Assembly: GCF_026151205.1 (NCBI RefSeq)
Contig: NC_087075.1
Coordinates: 14,151,628-14,215,627, forward strand
Length of the DNA stretch: 64,000 nt
DNA from: Bolinopsis microptera
Taxonomy: Eukaryota > Ctenophora > Tentaculata > Lobata > Bolinopsidae
Reading direction: 5' to 3'
The notes under the pieces were generated by a model. That model had not been told where the DNA came from and did no database searches. It was given only the letters and a program-made list of their open reading frames with translations. Below are positions 3,180 through 42,081 of this stretch, piece by piece (the first letter of the stretch is position 1; each line of letters starts with the position of its first letter). The position numbers and the translations under genes are program-made.

Positions 3180-4518
3180 CCAAACATTTATATTTATATC
3201 ACGACTGTAAGTTGTAACATATATTCTGAAAAGTTTACTTGAAACATTCACACGAGAACAGCTATATATCCTAATACATTGTTTCTGTCTATCTTACATT
3301 CACAAAAACATGAAATTAAAATCTCCGACATCTGCCTTTTGTTTAAGCTACATCCTTCATAATGAGTAGTTCTCCCCAGTGTCGTAATCGTTTTGATACT
3401 CATCTGGTATGTTTCCCGTATCTAACTTGTCTTTTGGTTACTTATAATCGATACGATTGTGGTTATTGTAAAATATGAAGTGCACATTAGCATTAAAAAT
3501 GACCACCACCACATCATTTGGGAGTGTTTGTCAACACTAACAACCACCACCACATCATTTGGAAGTGTTTGTCAACACTAACAACCACCACCACATCATT
3601 TCTCTGTGCATGTCAACACTAACAACCACCACCACATCATTTGTCTGTGCATGTCAACACTAACAACCACCACCACACCCCAACTCAAAACACGTGAAGA
3701 GTTTTTATCCAACGCGAAACAACTCCTGCGCCTCAGACGATTTTAGTCGGACACCATCATGCCGCGCGGCTTTTCAAACACTATTTAAAATATTCTCTGC
3801 GCGACTGACGGCATACATTAGAAGCTTTATTTTTATATTCACACGCAAACATGATAAAGGCAACCTTTCCACTTCCTACCTCGTAGGGGCCAATAATGTA
3901 GAATGAAGAAACATTATTAATTATTTTTGCAAACATAAATTTAAACGATCGACAAAAGGTAATGCCTACGGTCGATGGAAATCTAGCGTCCGCTAACCGG
4001 CGCAATTCTTGTTAACTTTAAAACTAGCCTAATGCACAATTTATACCTATAGGAAGCAGAACTGAGCTCCACAACCCAAGGCATGGCCCAACACCAGAGA
4101 ATACTAAATCGCAAAATTGACGTTTTTATAAAATAATTCTTCAAAAAAGCACAAACTTCAATGACGAATATCTTTATGAAGGAGCAAGCTAGAAAAACTT
4201 TCCGGTAGATTTTCAGAATGCTTGAACAATTATCTAAGATGAAAATTTCCTCAGATTTTGAATACAATTACTTTTTAATGGTGTAAAATCATTTTAAAAA
4301 GTTATTACTTTGTCAAAAATCAAGTTTTAAAAACGGTTAACTTGATGACGTCATCAAGGGGTGTTCATGACGTCAAATAATTTGTTTATAAATGTAAACT
4401 AAAGTGTAAACAATTATTTTCAAGACCTGTGGTCGGAAATGGCTGTATCTTTTATACTTTAGAATCTATGGACAATTAAACACAGGCTACAATTGACTGG
4501 CAAAGCGTTTTCTGCTCA
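3180..4518. repeat. Segmental direct duplication, copy 2 (deleted form)
   Basis: Near-identical to copy 1 but about 1 kb shorter. At 3675 the minisatellite joins directly to sequence that in copy 1 lies at about 1698, at a shared CCACACCCCAAC-like motif, which fits a microhomology deletion. The match ends at 4518 with CAAAGCGTTT, the end of repeat R1. Confidence 0.85.
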
Positions 4519-9129: not shown

Positions 9130-10404
9130 CTGATTATGAAATTATTGTTTAAGAAACTATTGGGTCACCTAATGCGGGTTTTGACTCAGCGGGTAATTAC
9201 TCCTACCCTTTTTAAACTACCCTTATCATATACGGGTACAGTGTTACACTAGTATATGATATAGTTTGAAGACACGCTTCAGTACTGAGATATTCAATCT
9301 ACTTCCTACCTGTGTAATCACTGCTAACTCTCGAGAGGAACCTAGTACATAGTGCACACTTCAGGTTAATTCTTTGATTTACAACTCTTTATCATCGTTG
9401 GCATTTTTAAAACCTTTCTGTATTATTTTCAAAATTGTATTACACGAGTTATTCTCATATTTCGTTAAAACTGTTATTTAATGTTCGCATTTGTATTGCA
9501 TGATATTCAATCACAAAATGATTAACCTGCTCATAATCATATCAGTGCTTGTATCAGTGCTCCGTGAGTAACAAGATGTTATATTTTAGGTACTATACTC
9601 AGGTCAGCGATCAAGCAGCGTATTCCAATTTCTTTCTAAATTAGAAATAGAACAACATCGTTTTTGGATATCAAGGTAAGAATATGTATGTTTACTAGCA
9701 CTTGGCTGTTTTACAAGATCTTGAAGTTGATATTCCAATATAAGTCTTGAATTTAGACTAATAGTCATCCCTATTATACGGCTCCTCATTCTCCATCCTA
9801 AACAATAATTTAAAATATTCCACCCCGCACATCAGTAGTCCAATCTTATTAAAAAATGATCTACATTGCTCGCAATAATTGATAATATTGATAATAATAA
9901 TTAATATGACAGGATATTATACATTTTAGGTACCAGATTCCGGTCAGAGATAACTGATTAAGCTGCGTTTCTGATATTTTCGTACTGAAGATCAACATTC
10001 ATCCTCAATATTAAAGTATGTACTCCCCAGTCCACCCCTCACAACTCCCCTTAATTTTTTTATTTTTCATTTGAAAATTCAATTAATTATTATATTATCA
10101 AGCGTTACATTTCAGCCATGCAGAATTACAATGACATATTTTGATATACTAATTGATAAATGGTACTGCAATATAAGTTGCTTAATGTTTGGCCGGATGA
10201 CAACTAACGAGAAAAATAAACTTGATTACATAATAATTAATTCGGCGGAACCAACACATAGCAAGAGCCACATTAACGTTGGGGTCGTCAAGATCAAAAT
10301 CAAACTCGTACTTTATCCTGAAAACCTGGTGCCTCATCTCATTTACAAATTATGATTACTTATAATAGTTTCATTTATCTCAGAATATCTAAATTTACTG
10401 AACA
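9130..10404. other. Upstream region of the NERD-helicase gene, no gene seen
   Basis: AT-rich. A diverged direct repeat occurs near 9588-9650 and 9918-9975 (both contain ATTTTAGGTAC followed by GGTCAG and AAGC.GCGT). A 94-codon frame at 10071-10355 has no recognisable domain and ends just before the gene. I see no TATA box that I would assign. Confidence 0.5.
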
Positions 10405-10868
10405 ATGGACAACTATGTAAAGAACGGAAAAGAAATATTTCTCAAGTTCTGCACCCCTGATGACAAACGACCCATTATGCTGCCGAGAGCTCCAGATCAG
10501 ACGTATATAGACAGGTACCCGGAGAGTAGTGACTTCAGAGACGAACGACAACGTCAGTCTGATTATGAGGCTGAAGTCATGGTGTATAGGGCTTTAGAGA
10601 AATTTCCGGACAATAAGATCGTCGTTCTCCATAACTTTGAATTCACGCACCACCAATACCGTTTGTGTGATCAGAGTCATTTGTGGAACAAAAAGACGTG
10701 CAAAGGGTGCAAGAATTTTTTGAATAAGGAAGGAGAATGTGATTTTTTAATTTTATGTCCAGACTGCATTATTATAATCGAAGTTAAGAACATGCCTCAC
10801 ATTTATAATGCGGTCGACAAGGAAAAACACTTCAAGGTATTATTTGGTACGTTCTCAAAATCAGTTGA
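10405..10868 (+). pseudogene. NERD-domain / SF1 helicase-like gene, 5' part (split by a transposon)
   Basis: The 5' part of an intronless gene. Residues 1-154 carry a NERD (nuclease-related) domain: a helix with YEAEVMVYRAL (53-63), then GECDFLIL (110-117) and IIIIEVKN (122-129). D113, E126 and K128 are in the positions expected for the restriction-endonuclease-like active site. Two CxxC-like cysteine pairs (88-102, 113-121 region) may bind a metal. After residue 154 the frame runs into the 10869-14600 transposon and stops within a few codons. Taking out the insertion and one copy of the flanking TGA joins it in frame to the 3' part at 14604, giving 704 codons. NERD domains joined to helicases are known in bacteria and some eukaryotes and are thought to process DNA. 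The role here is unknown. As sequenced, this allele should make only a truncated NERD protein. Confidence 0.82.
10866..10868. repeat. TGA target-site duplication (left)
   Basis: TGA precedes the left inverted repeat (element begins TAGTTAGGGCAAG at 10869) and recurs directly after the right inverted repeat at 14601-14603. Keeping one copy restores the reading frame of the host gene. Confidence 0.75.
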
Positions 10869-11250
10869 TAGTTAGGGCAAGAGTTGATTTTTCTGTGAAC
10901 AAATTCGTAACAAAGGTTTGTCTACTGGAATGTGTTGTCCATAGTCCCAGGAACCACCAAAAAAAACCGTCCAGCTGAAACTTTTGGGCAAAAATTTTTA
11001 TAGTCATTTTTCTCCAGGAACCCATACGCCCCACCCCTAATATTGGTTATTCGGCTCCCGAAGGTCTTGAGATCTCCATAGGGGGTGCAAAATGACCGCA
11101 ATGGCCACATTATTGCAGGCGAATGATAGTTTCAGAACGATTGGGGCTTTATTTTTCGAAATAAATGGAATTTTTCGAAATTTTTCTCAATTTTATTGAA
11201 ATTTCGAAAAAAATACACCAAATTATTTTTAACGCTTATTTCAAATCTTA
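10869..11250 (+). repeat. Left terminal inverted repeat of the 3.73 kb element
   Basis: Reverse complement of 14210-14600 with only a few differences, mainly near the outer end, where the right arm has about 20 extra or changed bases (AACAGC...). The inner part is AT-rich with repeated TTTCGAAA-type motifs. A 62-codon frame is present in each arm but is simply the shared repeat. Confidence 0.9.
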
Positions 11251-11302
11251 CTCGGGAAATAACTTCAATTAACAAATATCAAGGTTAACTAACAAACAAC
11301 AG

Positions 11303-11786
11303 ATTATTGACCAACCCCCAGACAGCTATTCGACGGTACATGCTACTCTGGTTGAATGTCTTAAGTTATCCTACAGTGAGCCGATAATAATCACATTCGA
11401 TTTGCCATTGTGGAATAAGCCACCCGAATAGTACTGGAAACTGGGATGCCTATTGTGGTCAGGGTTGGGGGCTTCCACACTCTCACGAGTTTTCTTGGCT
11501 GCATAGGCTATATAATGGCAGACTCGGGTTTAGAGGAGCTCATCAAACTCGTGTATCCTGGAGACGTCACGCATATATCGGATGGAGGATCTTACTATAA
11601 AGCGTTGAGAGCCCACTTTCTGATCGACGCCGCTCTTTGTTGTTTCATTATAGAGGAAGAAGTTTACGACGAGGAACTAGTAGACTTGGAAGGTTACATC
11701 AACAAATGTGTGAACGAAAATATAGGTGTTAACTTTAAGACTAAATCTATTCAGGATCTATCAGAGAAAATAACTCTGCTTCTAAA

Positions 11787-11818
<32 letters not shown>

Positions 11819-11830
11819 TCATGTTTTTTT
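11303..11830 (+). pseudogene. Broken gene of an uncharacterised invertebrate family, middle part
   Basis: From a possible acceptor (CAACAG at 11297-11302) the frame reads a conserved-looking stretch (YSTVHATL near 11324, ITFDLPLWNK near 11391). It loses one base near 11418 and continues one frame over with VVRVGGFHTLTSFLGCIGYI and SGLEEL (11455-11550). From memory, this 'RLGGFH..MSFLG.IG.IM..SGLEEL' block occurs in large uncharacterised proteins of hydrozoans, corals and arthropods, which end in a cysteine-rich motif like the one at 13945. The frame is lost in a poly-G run at 11788. The middle of the protein is missing, apparently replaced by low-complexity DNA. Function unknown; its place between TIRs suggests it is transposon-borne. 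Confidence 0.6.
11788..11817. repeat. Poly-G run, about 30 nt
   Basis: An uninterrupted G run that ends the readable part of the transposon gene. Next to it, repeats of GGACAAAAAC and the complement GTCCGTTTTTGTCC make a short inverted repeat (11826-11920). Confidence 0.95.
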
Positions 11831-11949
11831 GTCCGTTTTTGTCCGTTTGGCAGCCATATTTTCAAAACGGACAAAAAATAAAGCGGACAAAAACGGTCAA
11901 AAACGGACAAAAACGGACAAAAAATAACAAAAATTGAAATAACATTTAG

Positions 11950-12899
11950 ATGCTTCCTCCTCTTCCTCCTCCTCCTCCTCTTCCACCGCCTCAGTCATCC
12001 TCCTCAGTCCTCCTCCTCCTCCTGAGTCCTCCTCCTGGGTCCTCCTCCTGAGTCCTCCTCCTCCTCCTCTTCATCCTCCTCCTCTTCATCCTCCTCCTCT
12101 TCCTCCTCAGTCCTCAGTCCTTCTCCTCAGTCCTCCTCCTCAGTCCTCATCCTTCTCCTCAGTCCTCTTCAGTCCTCCTCCTCAGTCCTCCCCTCAGTCC
12201 CCCTCCTCCTCCTTCTATTCAGTCCTCCTCCTCATCCTCCTCAGTTCTCCTCAGTCCTCCTCCTTCTCAGTCCTCCTGAGTCCTCCTCCTGAGTCCTCCT
12301 CCTCCTCCCCCTCCCTCTCAGTCATCCTCCTCAGCCATCCTCCTCAGTCCTCCTCCTCTGCAGTCCTCATCATCCTCCTCAGTCCTCCTCCTCCTGGGTC
12401 CTCCTCCTCCTCTTCATCCTCCTCCTCTTCCTCCTCAGTCCTCAGTCCTTCTCCTCAGTTCTCCTCCTCATCCTTCTCGTCAGTCCTCCTCATCCTCAGT
12501 CCTCCCCCAGTCCCCCTCCTCCTCCTATTCAGTCCTCCTCCTCCTCCTCCTCAGTTCTCCTCCTTCTCATTCCTCCTTCTGAGTCCTCCTCATTCCTCCT
12601 TCTGAGTCCTCCTCATTCCTCCTTCTGAGTCCTCCTCCTCCTTTTTCTCCTGAGTCTTCCTCCTGGGTCCTCTTTCTCCTCCTCCTCCTCCTCCCTCTCA
12701 GTCATCCTCCTCAGTCATCCTCCTCAGCCATCCTCCTCAGCCATCCTCCTCCGCGATCCTCCTCAGCGATCCTCCTCAGTACTCCTCAGTCCTCCTCCTT
12801 CTCAGTCCTCCTCAGTCATCCTTCTCCTCCTCCTCCTCCTGGGGGGACAAAAACGGACAAAAACGGACAACAAAATAACAAAAATGGAAATAATATTTA

Positions 12900-12931
<32 letters not shown>

Positions 12932-13942
12932 CTCCTCCTCCTCTTCCCCTCCTCCTCCTCCTCCTCCTCCTCCTCCTCCTCCTCCTCCTCCTCCTCCTCC
13001 TCAGTCATCCTCCTCCTCCTCCTGAGTCCTCCTCCTGGGTCCTCCTCCTGGGACCTCCTCCTCTTAGGTCCACCTCCTCTTCATCCTCCTCCTCTTCCTC
13101 CTCAGTCCTCAGTCCTCCTCCTCAGCTCAGTTCTCCTTCTCAGTCCTCCTCCTCATCCTTTTCCTCAGTCCTCCTCCTCCTCAGTCCTGCCCAGTCCCCC
13201 TCCTCCTCCTATTCACTCCTCCTCCTCCTCCTCCTCCTCCTCCTCCTCCTCCTCCTCCTCCTCCTCCTCCTCAGTCCTCCTCCTCCTCAGTCCTCCTCCT
13301 TCTCAGTCCTCCTCCTCCTCCTCAGTCCTCCTCCTACTCAGTCATCCTCCTCAGTCCTCCTCCTCCTCCTCCTGGGTCCTCCTCCTGGGTCTTCCTGATC
13401 CTCCTCAGTCCTCTTCCTCCTCCCCTCCTCAGTCCTTCTTTTACTCCTCCTCGTCCTCAACAGTCCTCCTTCTCCCCAGTCCTCCTCCTCCTCCTGGGGC
13501 CTTTTCCTGGGTCCTCCTCCAGGGTCCTCATCCTCCTGGTTCCTCCTCCTCCTGCTTCTCCTCCTCAGTCCTTCTCCTCTTCCTCCTCCTCCTCAGTCTT
13601 CCTCATATTCCTCAGTCCTCCCCCAGTCACCCTCCTCCTCAGTCCTCCCCCAGTCACCCTCCTCCTCATCCTCATCCTCCTCATCAGTCCTCCTTCGCCT
13701 TCTCAGTCCTCCTCTTCAGTCCTCCTCCTCCTCCTTTTCCTGGTTCCTCCTCCTCAGTCCGCATTCTCCTCCACAGTCCTTCTCAGTCCTTCTCCCAGTC
13801 ACCCTCTTCCTCATCCTCCTCATCAGTCCTCCTTCTCTCTAGTCCTCCTCCTCAGTCCTCCTCCTCCTCCTCCTGGGTTCTCCTCCTGGATCCCTCTTCT
13901 CCTCCTCAGTCCTTCTCCTCCTCCTCCTCAGTTATCCTCCTC
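11950..13942 (+). repeat. 2 kb pyrimidine-rich CTC/CCT expansion in two blocks
   Basis: Almost pure C+T with CTCCTC and CTCAGTC motifs. It forms two blocks of about 1 kb, each starting with the same leader (ACGGACAAAAA.. then AACATTTAGATGCTTCCTCC at 11941 and AATATTTAGATGCTTCCTCC at 12890), so the expansion itself was duplicated. Long frames reading Ser/Pro/Leu on + or Glu/Arg on - are composition artefacts. Such tracts can form triplex (H-DNA) structures. Confidence 0.93.
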
Positions 13943-13944
13943 AT

Positions 13945-14118
13945 ATGAACCTTATATGTTGTAACTGTTCTGTCGATGTGGAACAGGCCTGTTTGACTTT
14001 CAGATGTTCATGTAGGAAATATGGCTTCAATTGTTTGCCAGCTTGTGGACGATGCCATGGTATGAACTGCACAAACATTAGACATGATGAACCTGAAGAA
14101 CAAGCGAATTTTGATTAA
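13945..14118 (+). pseudogene. C-terminal cysteine-rich motif of the same transposon gene
   Basis: A 57-codon frame right after the CTC tract. It has the pattern C-x2-C-x8-C-x4-C-x-C-x6-C-x4-C-x2-C-x4-C with the words RCSCRKYGFNC, ACGRCHG and NCTN, then an acidic end. This matches the cysteine-rich tail (similar in spirit to tesmin/TSO1 CXC zinc motifs) that I recall at the end of the uncharacterised invertebrate proteins whose middle block lies at 11303-11830. The two parts are probably the 5' and 3' remains of one gene with an internal deletion. An ATG at 13945 lets it read alone, but I doubt it is made as a separate protein. Confidence 0.55.
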
Positions 14119-14209
14119 TATTAACTGTGTATTAATAATTGTCATGGTACTTACTGAGAATACACATTTTAGATTAACTGTATTTGTTATTTGTAGATAA
14201 GTTTTTAAA

Positions 14210-14600
14210 TAGATTTGAAATAAGCGTTAAAAATAATTTGGTGTTTTTTTTTCGAAATTTCAATAAAATTGAGAAAAAATTCGAAAAATTCCATTTATTT
14301 CGAAAAATAAAGCTCCAATCGTTCTGAAACTATCATTCGCCTGCCATAATGTGGCCATTGCGGTCATTTTGCACCCCCTATGGAGATCTCAAGACCTTCG
14401 GGAGCCGAATAACCAATATTAGGGGTGGGGCGTATGGGTTCCTGGAGAAAAATGACTATAAAAATTTTTGCCCAAAAGTTTCAGCTGGACGGTTTTTTTT
14501 GGTGGTTCCTGGGACTATGGACAACACATTCCTGTAGACAAACCTTTGTTACGAATTTGTTCACAGATTGACCCATAAACAGCAATTCTTGCCCTAACTA
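14210..14600 (-). repeat. Right terminal inverted repeat of the 3.73 kb element
   Basis: Inverted partner of 10869-11250, ending CTTGCCCTAACTA at 14600, followed by the TGA duplication at 14601-14603. Confidence 0.9.
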
Positions 14601-14603
14601 TGA

Positions 14604-16254
14604 GCAGAGAAAGAAGATAGAATCTCTGATTCAATGTATAGAAAAGGACACAACTATCCGTCAGTTCACTGCGTATCCTAATTTCAGTAAACAATTTAAA
14701 GGACAGTTCCAGGCTAGTGAAGATACAAAACTTCAGCTAAGCGATTCAGAATTATCTACTGTGATATTCCATGAGGACATTGTCGACGAGGACTTATCCA
14801 GCGATGACATCTCATCAGACGAGGACTTATCAAGTTTTGGTTCTTGGTGGAATAACAACGCAACAATAGCTCAAGATACAAGAATTAATCATGATGCCTT
14901 TCAGAAAGTTAGAAATATGTTACTTGCTATCTGGGCTACCGATAAAAACTGCGATCAATCGAAATGTAGTTTAGCAAACTGCATATTAAACATTGATGAA
15001 CGGCTAAAATCAGGAAAATTTACATTTTTACCAAAAAAAGGGAAGAATTGTGTACAGAATCCTGGAGTTGTAACAGCCCCTGATGTTATCAGAAACTTCG
15101 TTAAAGTGGAGAACCTGACACTAGAACAATATGAAGCGTTCGAATCAAGCGAGAATCTGTTGTGGATTAATGGACCCGCAGGGGCGGGGAAAAGTGTAAT
15201 ACTTTGCGGAGGAATAATAAAACTTGTACAACTTAATGAGGACAATAAAGTTGTGTTATTCAAATTGGGCGGTGATGGTAACAACTGTCAACTTTATCAG
15301 CGTGCATTAAAGAATGCTGATGTAGAATATCAAGAGACCAGCATGTCTGACGTCACAGAACTAGTTACTCCTATATCAGAGAGTGAGTGTAAAGTTATCA
15401 TCGTAGAGATAACATACGACGATGTACAAAAGTTAACAGATACAATCAGTGATGTAACCAACTGTCACATTTTCATCGATGATATACAGGAGTTATTATA
15501 TTACAGCGAAACTGAGGAGTGTAGTGTGCTGATGGACAAGTTGGTATTATTAGAGTGCTCTGTCAGGGTTGCATGTGACATGGCACAGGGTCATTTGAGT
15601 TTGAGTAAACAGGGAGTTATTGACACACTAAGAATGATAAATGACAAACTATCATCCACTCAGTTGGGACGTTTATCAATGAGCCTTAGAAATACATGTG
15701 ATTTATCTGACATCTTATGTGTAATACGAGAACAATTAAGAGAATTATATTCAGAAATACCTGATGTATTAGATATGATTTTACCTATACAATTACAAGG
15801 ACATTTTATACACGGTACATTACCTGTCATACATGTGTTTCATGATTTCAATGTTACTAGTATTATGCATGTATTTAATAATGAGCTTGATAGATTATGT
15901 GATGAATTAAATTATTCTGATATAGGTATAGTACCTACTAATGTCACCAATAGGGCAATGTCACAAGTTGAGGACAGTGTTAATATGAGATGTGGTAACA
16001 CTGGTAGTAAGATTGCAGTGTGTAACAGTGGGGCTAGTTATTCTGCTCAGTGGCCAGCTGTAATAGTACTGTACAGAGTGGGGCACAGGGAGGAGGATGA
16101 CCTGACTCGACTTTACTTAGCGTTATCCAGAGCACGTGTTTACTGCTCTGTTGTTATATTCCCATTTAGGGAGGGTGAAACATTAGACGATTCACCTCAC
16201 ATCTTACGTTTGTTAGATAAACTGTGTAACTTTGCTCGTATTATACGGCATTAA
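14604..16254 (+). pseudogene. NERD-domain / SF1 helicase-like gene, 3' part
   Basis: Continues the gene begun at 10405, in frame once the transposon is removed. In joined numbering, an acidic serine-rich linker lies near 217-233, LTLEQYEAFE near 327-336, the Walker A loop GPAGAGKS at 345-352, a Walker B-like IFIDDIQEL at 444-452, then SAQWPAVIVLY and LALSRARVYC (about 659-668). These last two resemble motifs V and VI of UvrD/Rep-type superfamily-1 helicases. The frame is open to the stop at 16252-16254 with no other lesion, so the disruption looks recent. No intron is needed. With the N-terminal NERD domain this is a nuclease-helicase fusion. The substrate is unknown. A role in DNA repair or in defence against foreign DNA is inference only. 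Confidence 0.8.
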
Positions 16255-16380
16255 ATTTTATATTACTGTGTAATAACGTTGGTGGGTGACGAGTTCAATT
16301 TTTCAGAAACAAGTATACACAAGCCTTTAATGTGTGGCTATTGATTTCATATGAAATAATTGACGATTTTCGAAATTTTG

Positions 16381-16454
16381 ACCCAACCGGGATTCGAACT
16401 CGCAACCTCCGGGTTAAAGGCCCAAGACTATCAACCGATTACGCCACTGATGCG
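16381..16454 (-). other. tRNA-like sequence (pseudogene or SINE head)
   Basis: On the minus strand it has a B-box-like GAGTTCGAATCCCGG, an A-box-like AGTGGCGTAATCGGTTGA, and an anticodon arm with a good stem (TTGGG/CCCGG) around a TTT triplet. The acceptor ends pair poorly, base 33 is C instead of T, and the T stem has mismatches. It is therefore unlikely to be a working tRNA-Lys and is more likely a tRNA-derived SINE head or pseudogene. Confidence 0.5.
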
Positions 16455-16751
16455 ACATTTGTACAAATATATTAAGCTAGCAATTATGACTTGCAGATAA
16501 TTTCACCCACTAACCTAAGTATTACTATTATTTAATTGTGTTTCCTTTTTGATTTATTGCTAAATATTACAGTGTTTTGTATCGAAATGTTTTATACAAT
16601 AATATAAATGAGCCAGAATGAACATAGTAATTATATTTGTCATTCGTGGTTTGGAAACAGCAAAATTACCCCAAAATATGAAGAATGTCAAAAAGTAAAA
16701 ACGGGACCACTACTCTGCCTAATAAACTATTGACTATTAATATAATTTGTT
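16455..16751. other. AT-rich spacer, no gene seen
   Basis: Lies between the NERD-helicase gene and the Merlin element. No coding or structured signal seen. Confidence 0.5.
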
Positions 16752-16769
16752 GGCAACTAGAACGAACAC

Positions 16770-17022
16770 CGATGGGACATTAAGACAACATTAAGACACA
16801 TTAAGACAACAATAAGACAACATTAAGACACCAATAAGACACATTAACACAAAAATAAGACAACATTAAGACACCAATAAGACAACATTAAGACAACATT
16901 AACGCAACAAACACCAATAAGACAACAAACGATAAGACAACATTAAGACAACATTAAGGCATCATTAAGGCAACATTAAGGCAACATTAAAGCAACAAAT
17001 TCGTTTAAGACAACAAATTATG
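16770..17022 (+). repeat. Left subterminal array of TTAAGACAAC (10-bp unit)
   Basis: About 20 degenerate copies of ACATTAAGACA / CAATAAGACA. The inverted counterpart fills the right arm (18735-19617). Because they sit just inside both ends, the arrays may be transposase-binding sites, or simply replication-slippage expansions of the TIR. Confidence 0.88.
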
Positions 17023-17189
17023 TATAACAGTATAACACTATTTCTTCGAATATATTTTACTTTGTCAAATTATATTTTACTTCATCAACTGAGTTAGAGT
17101 AATACGAAATTGTGACTTAAACTCTGAAAATGAAATAATTAGGTCTCATTATTTATCAGGTAATACAAATTTACAGAGCAATAAATTAA

Positions 17190-18119
17190 TCAAAAATTCT
17201 TCTGAATAGGGCTGGGATATCTTGGTTGAAGGCTTTCCTCTCTTGTCAGTCCGTATCGCTTACACCACATAAATTCTGACAGGGCTACAGTCATGGCTGC
17301 TGAATCCGTTCGGGTACGACCGGTTCCTCTTCTCATGTGGTTCTTAGCGTGGAACCACATCCCTTCGCAGCTGTTGGTGTGAACACCAGTGACCGGGTCC
17401 ACAAATCCTCGACTATGGTTGACAACTTGATGAGGAAATCCGCGGTGTTGCAGGGCGTTATAACCTTTCCACTTGTCGGTGAGAATAGTTGTACCCGGTA
17501 GAACGTGCTCCTTGATGAGTGTGATTAGGGTGTTGTGATCGGGTCGATTGCCGGTACACTCCACTAAGAAGCATTCGCCAGTAGTCCTACAGAACCCACC
17601 CAGCACCCATTTTCCGACTACACGTCGACCTCTGTTATATTTTCGTTTACCGAATTTGGATTCGTCAATCTCCACTATACAGCCGACCCCACCAATCTTT
17701 CTACGTGCACCGTTGTCGAACAGGTCTTCAAGCATGCAATTTCGGATCGAGGAGAAGATGGACCGTACACAGCCGGTGCTGATGGTTATGATCCGTGCTA
17801 CGTCGCAGACGCTCAGTCGGTTGCAGAACAGCCAGATGATGTGGAGGAATACGGAGAAGGGTAGCTTGCGTTTGTGGAGGATACTCCCGGTTCTCACTGA
17901 GCAGAAGTGGTCGATGTCTGAAGAAGTGTCTGAACACTGCCAGCAGTAGCCGTCTGTGTACTTGCTCGTTGGGTATTTCTTCAAGGTCATAAAGTTGTTG
18001 CACTCTTCACAAGTTTGGAAAGGTCTCAGCATTCCGATATTCAAGCAGTACTGTAGACATTCCGTTTCCGATGATAGTGATCCGCGTCTTAACTCTTCGT
18101 AGGAGGGAAGGGAGTTCAT
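17190..18119 (-). CDS. Merlin (IS1016/ISXO2-like) DDE transposase
   Basis: A 309-codon intact frame starting at the ATG on 18119. Residues 37-62 hold two CxxC pairs (C37/C40, C59/C62), a zinc-ribbon typical of this family. A helical DNA-binding part follows (about 80-135). The catalytic core has D152 in VEIDESKFGKRK, D215 in ILTDKWKGY and E252 in NSCEGMWFHAKN, the DDE triad that cuts and joins DNA. GGFCRTTGECF and GVHTNSCEG are hallmark words of ISXO2-like transposases. Length is normal for the family, and there is no stop, frameshift or intron. The terminal inverted repeats at 16752 and 19634 bound it. TATACTATTTG-type AT-rich sequence about 40 bases upstream (near 18163) may serve as promoter. 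Confidence 0.92.
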   Translation of the reverse strand: MNSLPSYEELRRGSLSSETECLQYCLNIGMLRPFQTCEECNNFMTLKKYPTSKYTDGYCWQCSDTSSDIDHFCSVRTGSILHKRKLPFSVFLHIIWLFCNRLSVCDVARIITISTGCVRSIFSSIRNCMLEDLFDNGARRKIGGVGCIVEIDESKFGKRKYNRGRRVVGKWVLGGFCRTTGECFLVECTGNRPDHNTLITLIKEHVLPGTTILTDKWKGYNALQHRGFPHQVVNHSRGFVDPVTGVHTNSCEGMWFHAKNHMRRGTGRTRTDSAAMTVALSEFMWCKRYGLTREESLQPRYPSPIQKNF

Positions 18120-18169
18120 GTTGTATCGTTAGATAAAGTGTTGGTTTGATGGCCTCTTTTTATACTATT

Positions 18170-18475
18170 TGTCACGTGAGCAGAACACGACCATCGGCCT
18201 CATTAATACCACACGATCTAATCATGACGTGAATTGTTCGATTAATACCACATTCCATAAGAACACGAACAACGGCCCTCATTAATACCACACGATCTGG
18301 TCATGACGTGAACTGTTCGATTAATACCACATTCCATAAGAACACGAACAACGGCCCTCATTAATACCACACGATCTGGTCATGACGTGAACTGTTCGAT
18401 TAATACCACATTCCATAAGAACACGAACAACGGCCCTCATTAATACCACACGATCTGGTCATGACGTGAACTGTA
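18170..18475. repeat. 79-bp tandem repeat inside the Merlin element
   Basis: Nearly four copies of a unit containing GAACACGAACAACGGCC, CATTAATACCACACGATC, GGTCATGACGTGAACTG and TTCGATTAATACCAC. The first copy is the most diverged. It lies just upstream of the transposase start, where it could affect expression. Confidence 0.9.
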
Positions 18476-18734
18476 CAATTACAAGCTGCGATCTGAGAAT
18501 CGCTAACAAGATGTTACATTATTATCTGAGGTGATTCGACATGTGATGCATCGTAAAAAGTTGAGTGAGCCAGATGTCATTTAAAGTCACGTGAGCCATG
18601 GTGGCTAGCAGTCCAAAGTATCTTAACAGATAATTTCAAAAATCTGTGTGTGTAATAATCCTACCCTTTTTAACTGCGGCAATGAAATCCCGGCCGTATA
18701 TTACATATTCTAAACATTTTTTTGCATTAATGTA

Positions 18735-19617
18735 GTCTTAAACGAGTTTGTTGTCTTAATGTTGTTTTTAAAGAATTTGTTGTTTTAATGTTGTCTTAAA
18801 TGAGTTTGTTGTCTTAATGTTGTCTTAATGTTGTCTTAATGTTGTCTTAATTGAGTTTGTTGTCTTAATGTTGTCTTAATGTTGTCTTAATGTTGTCTTA
18901 ATGTTGTCTTAATGTTGTCTTAATATTTGATCCTATTGTGTTGTCTTATCGGTGTTTGTTGTCTTAATCTTGTCTTATTGTTGTCTTATTGTTGCCTTAA
19001 TGTTGTCTTAATGTTGTCTTAATGTTGTCTTAATGTTGTCTTAATGTTTGCTTTAATGTTGCCTTAATGTTGTCTTAATGTTGTCTTAATGTTGTCTTAA
19101 TGTTGTCTTAATGTTGTCTTATCGTTTGTTGTCTTATTGGTGTTTGTTGCGTTAACGTTGTCTTATTGTTGTCTTAATGTTGTCTTAATGTTGTCTTATT
19201 GTTGTCTTAATGTTGTCTTAATGTTGTCTTAATGTCCCATCGGTGTTCGTACAAGTTGTCTTAATGTTGTCTTAATGTTGTCTTAATGTTGTCTTAATAT
19301 TTGATCCTATTGTGTTGTCTTATCGGTGTTTGTTGTCTTAATCTTGTCTTATTGTTGTCTTATTGTTGCCTTAATGTTGTCTTAATGTTGTCTTAATGTT
19401 GTCTTAATGTTGTCTTAATGTTTGCTTTAATGTTGCCTTAATGTTGTCTTAATGTTGTCTTAATGTTGTCTTAATGTTGTCTTAATGTTGTCTTATCGTT
19501 TGTTGTCTTATTGGTGTTTGTTGCGTTAACGTTGTCTTATTGTTGTCTTAATGTTGTCTTAATGTTGTCTTATTGTTGTCTTAATGTTGTCTTAATGTTG
19601 TCTTAATGTCCCATCGG
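18735..19617 (-). repeat. Right subterminal array with an internal tandem duplication
   Basis: Dozens of TTGTCTTAATG units, the inverted form of the left array. A block of about 368 bp (roughly 18893-19260) is repeated at 19261-19628 with the same internal variants (GATCCTATTGTG, TGTTGCGTTAACG). The first block already ends in the terminal motif CCCATCGGTGTTCGTACAAG at 19235, so the element carries two copies of its right end. Confidence 0.88.
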
Positions 19618-19634
19618 TGTTCGTACAAGTTGCC

Positions 19635-21880: not shown

Positions 21881-21943
21881 TAATATCCAAACTACGGGAG
21901 GGATGTAATTAGAGAAGGTTTGTCAGACCCACAGGAATTTAGA

Positions 21944-24336
21944 ATGTTGCTTGATATTTCGTTGAGTTTGTTTGCGCTCCTCTGTCTTTGTGAGAGTGGT
22001 CATTATACCCTCGAGAATAAGACAGGTGATGGCAGTCTTGGAGCTGATGGCAGCCTCGGGAATATGGTGTTTCCGGAGGGAGCAGGTCTGGAGAGCTTGT
22101 CACTGATTATTGAACGGGCAAATCAATCCTTCATTAGGATGAAATCCATATCTACTGAGGCGGACAAAGCTGCCTCAGAAATGGAAGAGCTGATTAATAT
22201 CCTGCAGAAATTCCGTGTTAAGGATGGAAGTACCGGTGTAGCTACTCCTACAGAGTCTGATTATCCTTCAACACAGTTACCCCCTGAGGAAGATGTTACC
22301 TCTTCAGGACAACTTCCTGAGTCGACTACAGATGAATCAGAAGAGGAAGCAGAGGATGAAAACTATTCAGAGTCTGATTATCCTTCAACCCAGCTACCCC
22401 TTGAAGAAGATGTTAGCTCTTCAGTGCAACTTCCTGAGTCAACTACAGATGAATCAGAAGAGGAAGCAGAGGATGAAAATAATGGAGAGTCTGATTATCC
22501 TTCAACCCAGCTACCCCTTGAAGAAGATGTTAGCTCTTCAGGGCAACTTCCTGAGTCGACTACAGATGAATCAGAAGAGGAAGCAGAGGATGAAAATAAT
22601 GGAGAGTCTGATTATCCTTCAACCCAGCTACCCCTTGAAGAAGATGTTAGCTCTTCAGTGCAACTTCCTGAGTCGACTACAGATGAATCAGAAGAGGAAG
22701 CTGAGGATGAAAATTATTCAGAGTCTGATTATCCTTCAACCCAGCTACCCCTTGAAGAAGATATTACCTCTTCAGGACAACTTCCTGAGTCGACTACAGA
22801 TGAATCAGAAGAGGAAGCAGAGGATGAAAATGATGGAGAATCTGATTATCCTTCAACCCAGCTACCCCCTGAGGAAGATGTTAGCTCTTCAGGGCAACTT
22901 CCTGAGTCGACTACAGATGAATCAGAAGAGGAAGCAGAGGATGAAAATAATGGAGAGTCTGATTATCCTTCAACCCAGCTACCCCTTGAAGAAGATGTTA
23001 GCTCTTCAGTGCAACTTCCTGAGTCGACTACAGATGAATCAGAAGAGGAAGCAGAGGATACAAATTATTCAGAGTCTGATTATCCTTCAACCCAGCTACC
23101 CCTTGAAGAAGATATTACCTCTTCAGGACAACTTCCTGAGTCGACTACAGATGAATCAGAAGAGGAAGCTGAGGATGGAACCCCCTACACAACCCGCCCC
23201 GAAGGATCAACCGAACCGCTAACTGTGTTCCCAGAAGCGGATGATCAAGCGCTACCGTTTAACTGCCATTATAATTTTACCAGCCAACAAATCCCCGGAA
23301 ATCCTAAATCAACTTGTGCTACTTGGTTGTTAGATAACTATCATAAACATAAAGAGGGTTGGAGATCTTGTCACGATGCTGATTATCATCGTTATGATGA
23401 AAGTGGGTTGTTTGAAAAAAGTAAGTTACTTTTTTAGTTGTTATGAATGTTATCTACCTTCATTTTTTTTGGATTTGCGTTTGAAAATTGTTATGTTCAT
23501 GGAAATATTAGTTTAAAACATGGACATAAGATTGAGTATATAAAATAAAAGCTTAGTGATCGATTCCTCCTTCAGTACTTGTTTCAAATAATTTAAAATA
23601 TTTCAAATTTTTTTAAACGATCTAATTTTGAAATTATTTCAGCAACGTGTTCCGACTACACCAGTCAATGTGGAAGTGATCAGACGGACAAGGCATGCTG
23701 TGCAATGGTGTTATGTGAGATTCAAAGAGTTACCTTTTTTTATCAAGGGCCCAATAAAAAAATAGAAGAAGCTGAGGAAGACGAGGAGGGAACTGAACCT
23801 GAGGAGGGACCCCATGATTTAGCTACGGGTGCTTGCCAGGATCGATATCATCATAATCTTGATAACGCCTGCGTCAAATGGATGTTTGAACACTATCATT
23901 TGGTCAAGACTCGGTTTCGTTGGCAGAGGTGCTCGGAGTTTGACTACAGTAAACATAGTAAAAGTAAGTTACAAGAATACTGTTTTAAACACGTAGTAAA
24001 GCTTTGTAATTAGAATGAAAATGTGATTAAGTTAAGTCGTTAAAAGTTTAAGGACATTAACAACTTTGTTTAAATCTTTAATTCAATTTCTGGCTTGTCT
24101 GTAACCTTCTTGATATTGTTTGTACTGGGGTTTCACTACGTTACGTCTGAATTTCAGCTTGCTCCTCAGCTCTAAAAACTGTGTTTAACATTTTTCTCTT
24201 CTCAGAGGGGTGCGGTAAGCTGAAAAGACAGTGCGAAAAAGCTGAAGCGAAGAAGCAGAGCTCTGCAAACGAACTCTGCTGTGCGTCCATAAACTGCTAC
24301 GGTAGGAGGAGGCATTTTCTGAGACTGAGCGGTTGA
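21944..24336 (+). CDS. Secreted acidic-repeat protein with two eight-cysteine domains (3 exons)
   Basis: Model: exons 21944-23420, 23643-23963 and 24206-24336 (642 aa), both introns phase 1, donors GTAAGT, acceptors TTTCAG and TCTCAG. I chose the ATG at 21944 because it opens a clean signal peptide (MLLDISLSLFALLCLC); the frame is open a little further upstream without an ATG. Residues 60-90 are helical. Residues 104-415 are eight 39-aa repeats rich in Asp, Glu, Ser and Thr (SDYPSTQLP, SEEEAEDE), likely glycosylated and extended. Two copies follow of a domain with eight cysteines (about 439-516 and 555-629), ordered C, C, C, [intron], C, C, CC, C, and separated by an acidic linker (KKIEEAEEDEEG). 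The intron cuts both copies at the same place, so they arose by duplicating an exon pair. I do not recognise the domain. Secretion is inferred from the signal peptide and lack of a membrane segment. AATAAA at 24523 could end the transcript. Confidence 0.78.
22254..23178 (+). repeat. 117-bp coding tandem repeat, 8 copies
   Basis: Each unit encodes 39 residues. Variants at three sites (V/ITSSG, VSSSG, VSSSV; tails NYS, NNG, NDG) recur with a period of three units: copies 3-5 match 6-8 better than their neighbours, which indicates a higher-order duplication. The frame is kept in every copy. A second open frame through the array (22293-23222) is a by-product of the repeat length being divisible by three. 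Confidence 0.92.
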
Positions 24337-40540: not shown

Positions 40541-42081
40541 ATGTTACGTTTTATCCTCTCTGTATTATCGGTATTTGTTGCCTGTCCAGGGTTTACTACC
40601 GCAGCCAGCGACACCAAGAGCGATAAAGCTCTTAAATTTGCTTATGATCAAAATGCTTACATATCTTACAGTCCCAAAGTTAACTCACTGGCAGAAAAGT
40701 TTTCTGTTTGTGTGTGGGTCCGCAAGTTCCAATCTGGAAATACTCCTATAGCGTTCGCGTATAATGGTTGGGAACTAGCGTTGGGAGACAGTGGCTACTA
40801 CAACATGCTGTTCAGTACCCAAATTAATCTGGCCAGCAAGTTCCCCACTGACAATACTTGGTATCTGTACTGCTCAACCTGGAGCCTAGCTTCTAGAACC
40901 TTCCGTGTGTACGTGAACGGGCAACAAGTAGGGACCAGGACAACAACCTCCGGGAGAAGGCTGCAGACAGGCGGAACATTAACCTTGGGGAATTATGGAA
41001 CAAATAACGGGCACCATTTTGGAGGCATGCTTTTTAACTTTAATATGTACTCTAAAGAACTGACGGCTACAGAAGTAGCTGCCCTGTCTTCAGGTGGATT
41101 TTGTGCAGAGATTCCTGAGCAGTTGGAAGAGTACCGGGTAATAAAGTGGGAAGACATTCTCAAACTGAGCAGATCTGGTACTGTGTTGGATATAGACACC
41201 AGATGTGCTGCATTTGTTGAACTACCAATAACTCGGAAAAAGCTGGAATTGGCCGTGAGAGAAAAAAGTTCTCTGGAACTATCCTTAAACAAAACGAGGA
41301 CAGATCTACTCGAAGTTCAAGAACGCTTCAACTCTACCCAGGAGGAACTAGTTGGGGTACAAGAACGCTTCAACTCTACCCATGAGGAGTTAGTTGGGGT
41401 CAGGAGGGAGCTTGGAGCAACAGAGGGGGATTTAAATGAAACGAAGAGCGACCTTCAAGAAACAAAGTTGGAACTTAGGAATCTCACGGAGTCTAAATGT
41501 GCGCTAAAGAAAGGGAATTTGACAAAGTGGGATATGTTCTATTCGCCCGAGTACTATAATAAAACCTTCACTCACACTCTCTACCAACAACTCACCTCGA
41601 CATGGGATTCAATTAGCAGTAAGATGCAATTAATATTTACATAAATTAGTCAACGTTTTTTCATATTTTGTTGCAATTGAAATGAAATTCGTATTAAGGA
41701 AATTTATTTTGCATGCTTGATACTAATAAACCAGTAACATACATATTTGTCCATTTCGTTTGATAAAACTTTATTATTACAGTTTACGAGTACAATTAGT
41801 AAGACAACTAGAGCACAATAATAGTAATCAAAATTTACAACCACTCAATACGACATATGTATGTTCGATACCATAAAATTCTTGCAATTTATTTAACTCG
41901 ATCAAAATATCAACATATTTTAAACGAATTGATACCAGATCGACAGTACTGTTAGTAAACGAGTTTTAACTTCTCCTCTTATTCAGATCGACTGTTTGGG
42001 ATGACGATTACTGACAAGGTAATCGAGCTGATAAAAGATCTGGATGACGATCAGATCGATCACTGCGGAGAATTATCATAA
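40541..42081 (+). CDS. Secreted LamG/pentraxin-like lectin with coiled coil (2 exons)
   Basis: Exons 40541-41618 and 41987-42081 (390 aa). The donor GTAAGA and acceptor TCTCCTCTTATTCAG are strong, and the phase-1 join stays open to a stop at 42079-42081. Without splicing, the frame would end at 41644. Residues 1-22 are a signal peptide (MLRFILSVLSVFVACPGFTT). About 30-190 form a concanavalin-A-like LamG/pentraxin domain: VCVWVRKF, WELALGDSGYYN, WYLYCSTWS, RVYVNGQQVGT, TLTLGNYGTNNGHHFGGMLF, and ATEVAAL near the end. About 225-325 form a coiled coil that includes a tandem 14-residue repeat (VQERFNSTQEELVG / VQERFNSTHEELVG) and several N-x-S/T sites. Such proteins usually form trimers or larger oligomers that bind glycans or lipids outside the cell; that role is inferred. 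AATAAA at 42428 could end the transcript. Confidence 0.8.

Follow-up and report, generated by a model that had tools for sequence, protein, structure and literature searches.

A DNA transposon, probably of the AcademX type, interrupts one member of a large NERD-NTPase gene family in the ctenophore Bolinopsis microptera

A gene in two parts

The stretch of the Bolinopsis microptera genome analyzed here, referred to as the window, comprises 64,000 nucleotides of contig NC_087075.1 (RefSeq assembly GCF_026151205.1, positions 14151628 to 14215627). It contains an intronless gene of 704 codons, encoding a NERD nuclease domain followed by a P-loop nucleoside triphosphatase (NTPase) region, that is split into segments 10405 to 10868 and 14604 to 16254 by a DNA transposon of 3,732 bp (10869 to 14600; Table 1). 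The insertion, its target duplication and the joined frame can be read directly from the sequence. Specifically, removal of the element and one TGA trinucleotide joins the two segments into 704 codons plus a stop codon, with no internal stops. The initial annotation of this region had proposed just such a split gene and restored frame, and the features that it listed, a NERD frame ending at 10868, an element with inverted ends and a TGA duplication, are all present. The probability that this is a single gene interrupted by a transposon insertion is put at about 0.93.

The left frame starts with the ATG at 10405 and now ends after 156 residues at a TAG codon (10873 to 10875) that comes from the end of the element. 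Evidence that both parts belong together comes from the same genome. The searches covered the assembly that holds the window (264.65 Mb in 232 contigs, the window lying on contig C4; C and L numbers denote contigs and loci) and score only the best candidates, so that copy numbers are lower bounds. They return 151 stretches for the left half and 104, the window's own included, for the right half. For the junction test, 19 paralogous loci were cut out, with the window's own locus kept apart. In all 19 the left half precedes the right half, and the junction residues (KSV/EQRKKI and variants, the slash marking the junction) align free of gaps, indicating that both halves form one gene. Together with the regular target duplications of the element copies (see below), this agreement lies well outside chance. 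A stop-free single frame of 698 to 836 residues is seen in 15 of these paralogs; in L002, L009, L014 and L017 it is broken or shortened, to 654, 524, 547 and 453 residues, respectively.

Two separate genes might instead lie in chance-compatible frames around a repeat, given that each half is open by itself and that 40 of the 91 NERD stretches of the genome are found in frames of fewer than 700 residues. This reading is ruled out by the fetched paralogs, all of which combine the two halves with no gap at the junction. The target duplication is an exact 3 bp, and the nearest copies are similar on both sides, with DNA identities of 92 to 93% for the left half (L004 and L017) and 91 to 97% for the right half (L014 and L005 to L007). 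The probability left to separate genes is negligible. Nor do the halves match different full-length proteins, the outcome that the initial annotation had named as speaking against a split gene.

Table 1. Positions of the interrupted gene, the transposon and adjacent features in the window
Feature	Position	Strand	Evidence
Duplicated unit including flanks, homologous to paralogs (minus insertions)	9259..16751	+	Window versus paralog comparisons (C2 copy)
Dispersed short repeat (~235-243 bp), ~106 bp upstream of the ATG	10056..10298		Absent from paralogs compared (5 in one comparison, 9 in another)
5' part of interrupted gene, NERD nuclease domain with GECDFLI...IIEVKN	10405..10868	+	PF08378 match; 93% DNA identity to L004
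Left TGA, 3-bp target-site duplication	10866..10868		Sequence; other copies also flanked by 3-bp duplications
DNA transposon, probable AcademX type, non-autonomous, TCC-rich interior	10869..14600	+	Inverted ends, target duplication, repeated copies
Left terminal inverted repeat	10869..11248	+	Inverted-repeat alignment; genome-wide matches
Remnant of transposon protein (113 codons searched)	11446..11784	+	69% identity to a stretch of the 1342-residue frame on C7
Poly-G run, GTCCGTTTTT repeats and TCC-rich array replacing the middle of the transposon gene	11787..13930		Repeat content
Remnant of the cysteine-rich C terminus of the transposon protein	13945..14118	+	65% identity to L071 residues 1124-1180
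Right terminal inverted repeat	14211..14600	-	Inverted-repeat alignment; 60 right ends genome-wide
Right TGA, target-site duplication	14601..14603		Sequence
3' part of interrupted gene, P-loop NTPase, possibly like superfamily 1 (SF1) helicases, Walker A NGPAGAGKS	14604..16254	+	NPHP3_N, SLFN-g3_helicase, UvrD_C_2
Merlin-like transposon, its start coinciding exactly with the end of homology to the C2 paralog (16751)	16752..19634	-	PF12762 E 2e-12; inverted ends

Domains of the encoded protein

The left half matches the NERD domain (Pfam ID PF08378) with an E value of 5.7e-9 and 36.9 bits, above the gathering score of 22.1. Coverage of the 111-position profile grows from positions 2 to 68 in the left half to positions 2 to 95 in the joined protein. 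At the same time the score falls slightly, by 1.4 bits to 35.5, which counts against the joining; with coverage up and score down, this profile test of the halves is neutral by itself.

Among the profiles matched by the right half, the P-loop NTPase model NPHP3_N scores best (E value of 4.1e-5, 24.3 bits against a cut-off of 24.8) and just exceeds its cut-off in the joined protein (25.5 bits). Two helicase models stay below their curated cut-offs on the right half: SLFN-g3_helicase (E value of 5.7e-4, 19.7 bits against 24) and UvrD_C_2 (E value of 0.0098, 16.2 bits against 27.4). Among ten family members, matches at E values of 0.01 or better are found to NPHP3_N in all ten, to SLFN-g3_helicase in nine and to UvrD_C_2 in two. 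Searches of the NTPase half against solved structures return no convincing relative, the best being DotB (E values of 0.29 to 0.35) and PcrA (E value of 0.99). Thus, in the label NERD-helicase of the initial annotation, NERD holds, but the helicase part is weakly supported.

The protein resembles known proteins that combine NERD with a C-terminal helicase or NTPase in its NERD match, its Walker A motif and its NTPase- or helicase-like C-terminal part. In contrast to those, it is encoded in a eukaryote by an intronless gene, in a genome with at least 91 NERD stretches, and its helicase profiles remain under their cut-offs while NPHP3_N passes narrowly.

The transposon and its copies

The element has the termini TAGTTAGGGCAAGA and TCTTGCCCTAACTA, which are the outer ends of inverted repeats of about 380 to 390 bp with 95% identity over 390 columns, gaps included. 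The left repeat has 40 scored matches in the genome at 96 to 100% identity, among them the repeat of the window itself and one or more right ends. With as many as 3 mismatches allowed, a 35-base pattern from the right end occurs 60 times, 55 of them exact; the same pattern reversed, used as a control, has no match in the genome. Both flanks were measured for 22 copies, namely the window's, L022, 19 pairs and a copy on C3. Of these, 21 have target duplications of 3 bp and one has 4 bp (AATA), with no fixed sequence. Outside this count are, among others, L031 to L033, L041, L044 to L046 and L050, of which the left end is known.

Only parts of a transposon protein are left in the window copy. Matches to the related protein span 118 and 57 residues, with a weaker piece (residues 291 to 358) that overlaps the first. 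Compared by eye, the second remnant (13945 to 14118) differs little from the C-terminal part of the C3 copy, a member of the element family that retains more of the protein in a broken frame. A poly-G run of 31 bases, GTCCGTTTTT repeats and the TCC-rich array occupy the sequence between the remnants. The window copy is therefore directly seen to lack coding capacity for the whole protein and is non-autonomous. Among 19 other protein-matched loci, three (L051, L053 and L055) share the poly-G/TCC type of interior, 12 continue as coding sequence and four gave no reading. Since this interior is common to other loci, its exchange would predate the insertion in the window.

Superfamily assignment

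The nuclease of AcademX elements is of the XPG type. A transposon-related open frame of 1342 residues is found on C7 (1185 residues of it were read). The 1342-residue protein has no convincing match in Pfam or in phmmer searches against solved structures, and a two-member profile of the transposon protein has none in Pfam or the PDB. A profile built from five relatives in the same genome, compared with the PDB set, retrieves up to an E value of 10 only Exonuclease 1, in four distinct sequences. The alignment extends over about 190 residues and keeps the motifs FDG, DAD/EAD, EDxD and GCD in register. The match may be a specific, if faint, sign of an XPG/Rad2-type nuclease.

According to PMC10045372, AcademX elements encode a "nuclease" and have target duplications of 3 or 4 bp; those of AcademH are 9 or 10 bp, a difference that is linked there to the encoded nuclease and helicase. 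The element in the window shares with the AcademX lineage of the Academ superfamily the 3- or 4-bp duplications, the inverted repeats and possibly, in the related protein, an Exonuclease 1/XPG-like region, which is weakly matched. It differs in having lost most of the protein and in its poly-G/TCC interior. On this basis the element probably belongs to the AcademX type. Two points weigh against this assignment. The resemblance to Exonuclease 1 is weak (E values of 0.018 to 0.077, and 0.064 for the best stretch). Single transposon proteins give no convincing match in Pfam or the PDB, one of the five relatives touching 5_3_exonuc_N at an E value of 0.15.

The weakness of the nuclease match leaves some room for another superfamily with 3-bp duplications, which according to PMC10045372 and PMC12730594 are also known from other groups, such as those like Harbinger, Zator or CACTA. 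Against such an origin stand the termini TAGTTAGGG, the lack of a fixed target sequence across the 22 measured copies and the Exonuclease 1/XPG-like active-site motifs; the lack of a transposase profile match in Pfam points the same way as negative evidence only. Membership in one of these groups is thus unlikely. Among 51 pattern-matched stretches in viral contigs, none is a relative of the transposon protein.

Age of the insertion

Between the two inverted repeats there are 8 mismatches and a 10-base gap, which another alignment splits into gaps of 1 and 9. Other copies show these differences too, as seen in the left ends that were read and in the 55 exact right ends, so they are older than the insertion in the window and give no date for it. 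The claim of the initial annotation that the knock-out dates the element thus gets no support from the repeats, and an estimate of age must draw on the nearest other copies. Its view of the event as recent fares better, in relation to the duplications of the gene. Among the loci read for comparison, most of which reach one element end only, the nearest copy (L022/L051 on C9) agrees with the window at 914 of 919 positions on the left (4 of 918 bases differ, plus one gap) and 601 of 604 on the right (3 differ). These 7 differences in about 1,520 bases contrast with a synonymous divergence of 0.13 to 0.14 between the broken gene and the closest paralogs compared (L005 to L007), which indicates that the insertion is the younger event. 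The element family is young, and the insertion appears recent relative to the gene duplications.

Several observations call for caution. The stop-free 704 codons are weak evidence of youth: under a simple model, neutral divergence after the insertion could have reached about 3% and the frame would still be open in 1 of 20 cases. The ratio of nonsynonymous to synonymous substitution rates (dN/dS) against six close paralogs is higher in the right half (0.60 to 0.70) than in the left (0.33 to 0.48), which may reflect relaxation or simply a faster half. Finally, the left half is closest to L004 and L017, and the right half with the 3' flank to L014 and L005 to L007, so that possible gene conversion may blur the dates.

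Long relaxed evolution of the broken gene has left no sign in the changes specific to the window. In the comparison of nine paralogs (L014, L002 and L017, with stops or truncated, being left out), these amount to 15 nonsynonymous and 11 synonymous ones, a ratio that falls among those of four other lineages (26:18, 25:16, 13:4 and 19:11).

Consequences for the locus

A cut-and-paste transposon, whose young family is most likely of the nuclease-encoding AcademX type, entered codon 155 of one copy of the gene, and staggered cutting duplicated the TGA. The first bases of the element supply the in-frame stop, leaving a NERD-domain fragment of 156 residues and, as an orphan, the NTPase half devoid of a natural start. 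Because the poly-G/TCC-rich interior leaves the whole transposon protein not encodable, the element would have been moved in trans by the protein of another copy. The interrupted gene has presumably lost its function, and a clean knock-out is plausible from the sequence, although the NERD core is still encoded at the locus and 90 other NERD stretches are listed in the genome. The initial annotation held that the insertion may be polymorphic; in the assembly, the next best matches to the gene are paralogs with 87 to 89% protein identity. The gene belongs to a large family that arose as a block several kilobases long was repeatedly duplicated, and other members probably buffer its loss.

Some plant transposons are removed from transcripts as introns. 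Here, splicing from the GT at 10864 to the AG at 14603 to 14604 would excise the element in frame at the cost of two residues, so that a nearly full-length protein could still be made. The donor (TCA/GTTGAT) fits the usual consensus poorly, as judged by eye, and 15 of the 19 paralogs have long intronless frames. In addition, AATAAA or ATTAAA signals at 11160, 11877, 14262 and 14306 could end transcripts within the element. Splicing is accordingly given a very small probability. A barely larger one goes to the idea that the stop codon and polyadenylation signals of the element let the locus make a NERD-only nuclease, in place of a simple knock-out, from a family that may itself be directed against mobile or viral DNA. 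If that were true, the insertion would have converted a nuclease-NTPase into either a free nuclease or a fragment with a dominant-negative effect.

The case resembles natural gene disruptions by other cut-and-paste transposons in its target duplication, its premature stop from the element end and its intact paralogs, and does not differ from them in principle.

The gene family and its spread

The genome contains at least 91 NERD stretches, all above the PF08378 cut-off; tallied from the rows of the genome listing, 51 of the 91 lie in frames of at least 700 residues. Many family copies are clustered, at 0.16 to 0.45 Mb of C2, on C12 and at 8.0 Mb of C13. The relations within the family are evident from direct comparison: homology extends into the flanks and, together with this clustering, points to segmental duplication, not retroposition. 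The idea that the gene copies themselves form a mobile element was considered and rejected, as the outer homology limits differ between comparisons (window versus C2, C2 versus C4 copy), with no shared ends among the three copies covered; segmental duplication is preferred.

Within 9259 to 16751, one paralog group (L004 and L017) is resembled by the left half of the gene and another (L005 and L014) by the right half and 3' flank, a pattern that suggests possible gene conversion between the groups. Pairwise dN/dS values exceed 1 (1.13 to 1.45) among three recent copies on C2.

Scans for an outside source started from two short peptide patterns, which distant relatives could escape. A bacterial source finds one weak relative (26% identity, query residues 334 to 461) among 362 pattern-matched stretches, and a viral source none among 88 in viral contigs; both were rejected. 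Searches of the literature on NERD proteins with helicases, family expansion and immunity found nothing directly on a NERD-NTPase family. The expansion of NERD plus P-loop NTPase genes may be of an immune type.

Neighboring insertions and other features

Two further insertions, both absent from the paralogs compared, flank the gene. The dispersed repeat upstream is of high copy number (630 first-look candidates, of which 40 were scored, with the scored copies 92 to 95% identical). The Merlin-like element downstream encodes a transposase (17190 to 18119) whose IS1595-type DDE domain scores 47.8 bits against a cut-off of 27. For Merlin and IS1595, PMC10045372 gives a target duplication of 8 bp; none is seen at the ends read of this element. 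Its inverted ends run into arrays of 11-bp repeats (ACATTAAGACA and TGTTGTCTTAA). With three insertions in and around it, the interrupted gene is probably dispensable.

Elsewhere in the window, two arrays (323 to 853 and 3502 to 3677) share nearly the same 41-bp unit (ACCACCACCACATCATTTG...). The frame at 21920 to 23437 has about 8 copies of an acidic repeat of 117 bp (39 residues) after a signal-like N terminus. A secreted-looking protein with a Laminin_G_3 domain (E value of 7.3e-20) is encoded at 40541 to 41644.

Significance

The insertion follows an ordinary mechanism and leaves the general view of such events unchanged; its value lies in how cleanly it is resolved. A young transposon breaks one copy of a large, fast-changing family, whose intact paralogs serve as built-in empty sites. 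The case points to a large NERD-NTPase family and a recently active, probable AcademX family in the genome of B. microptera.

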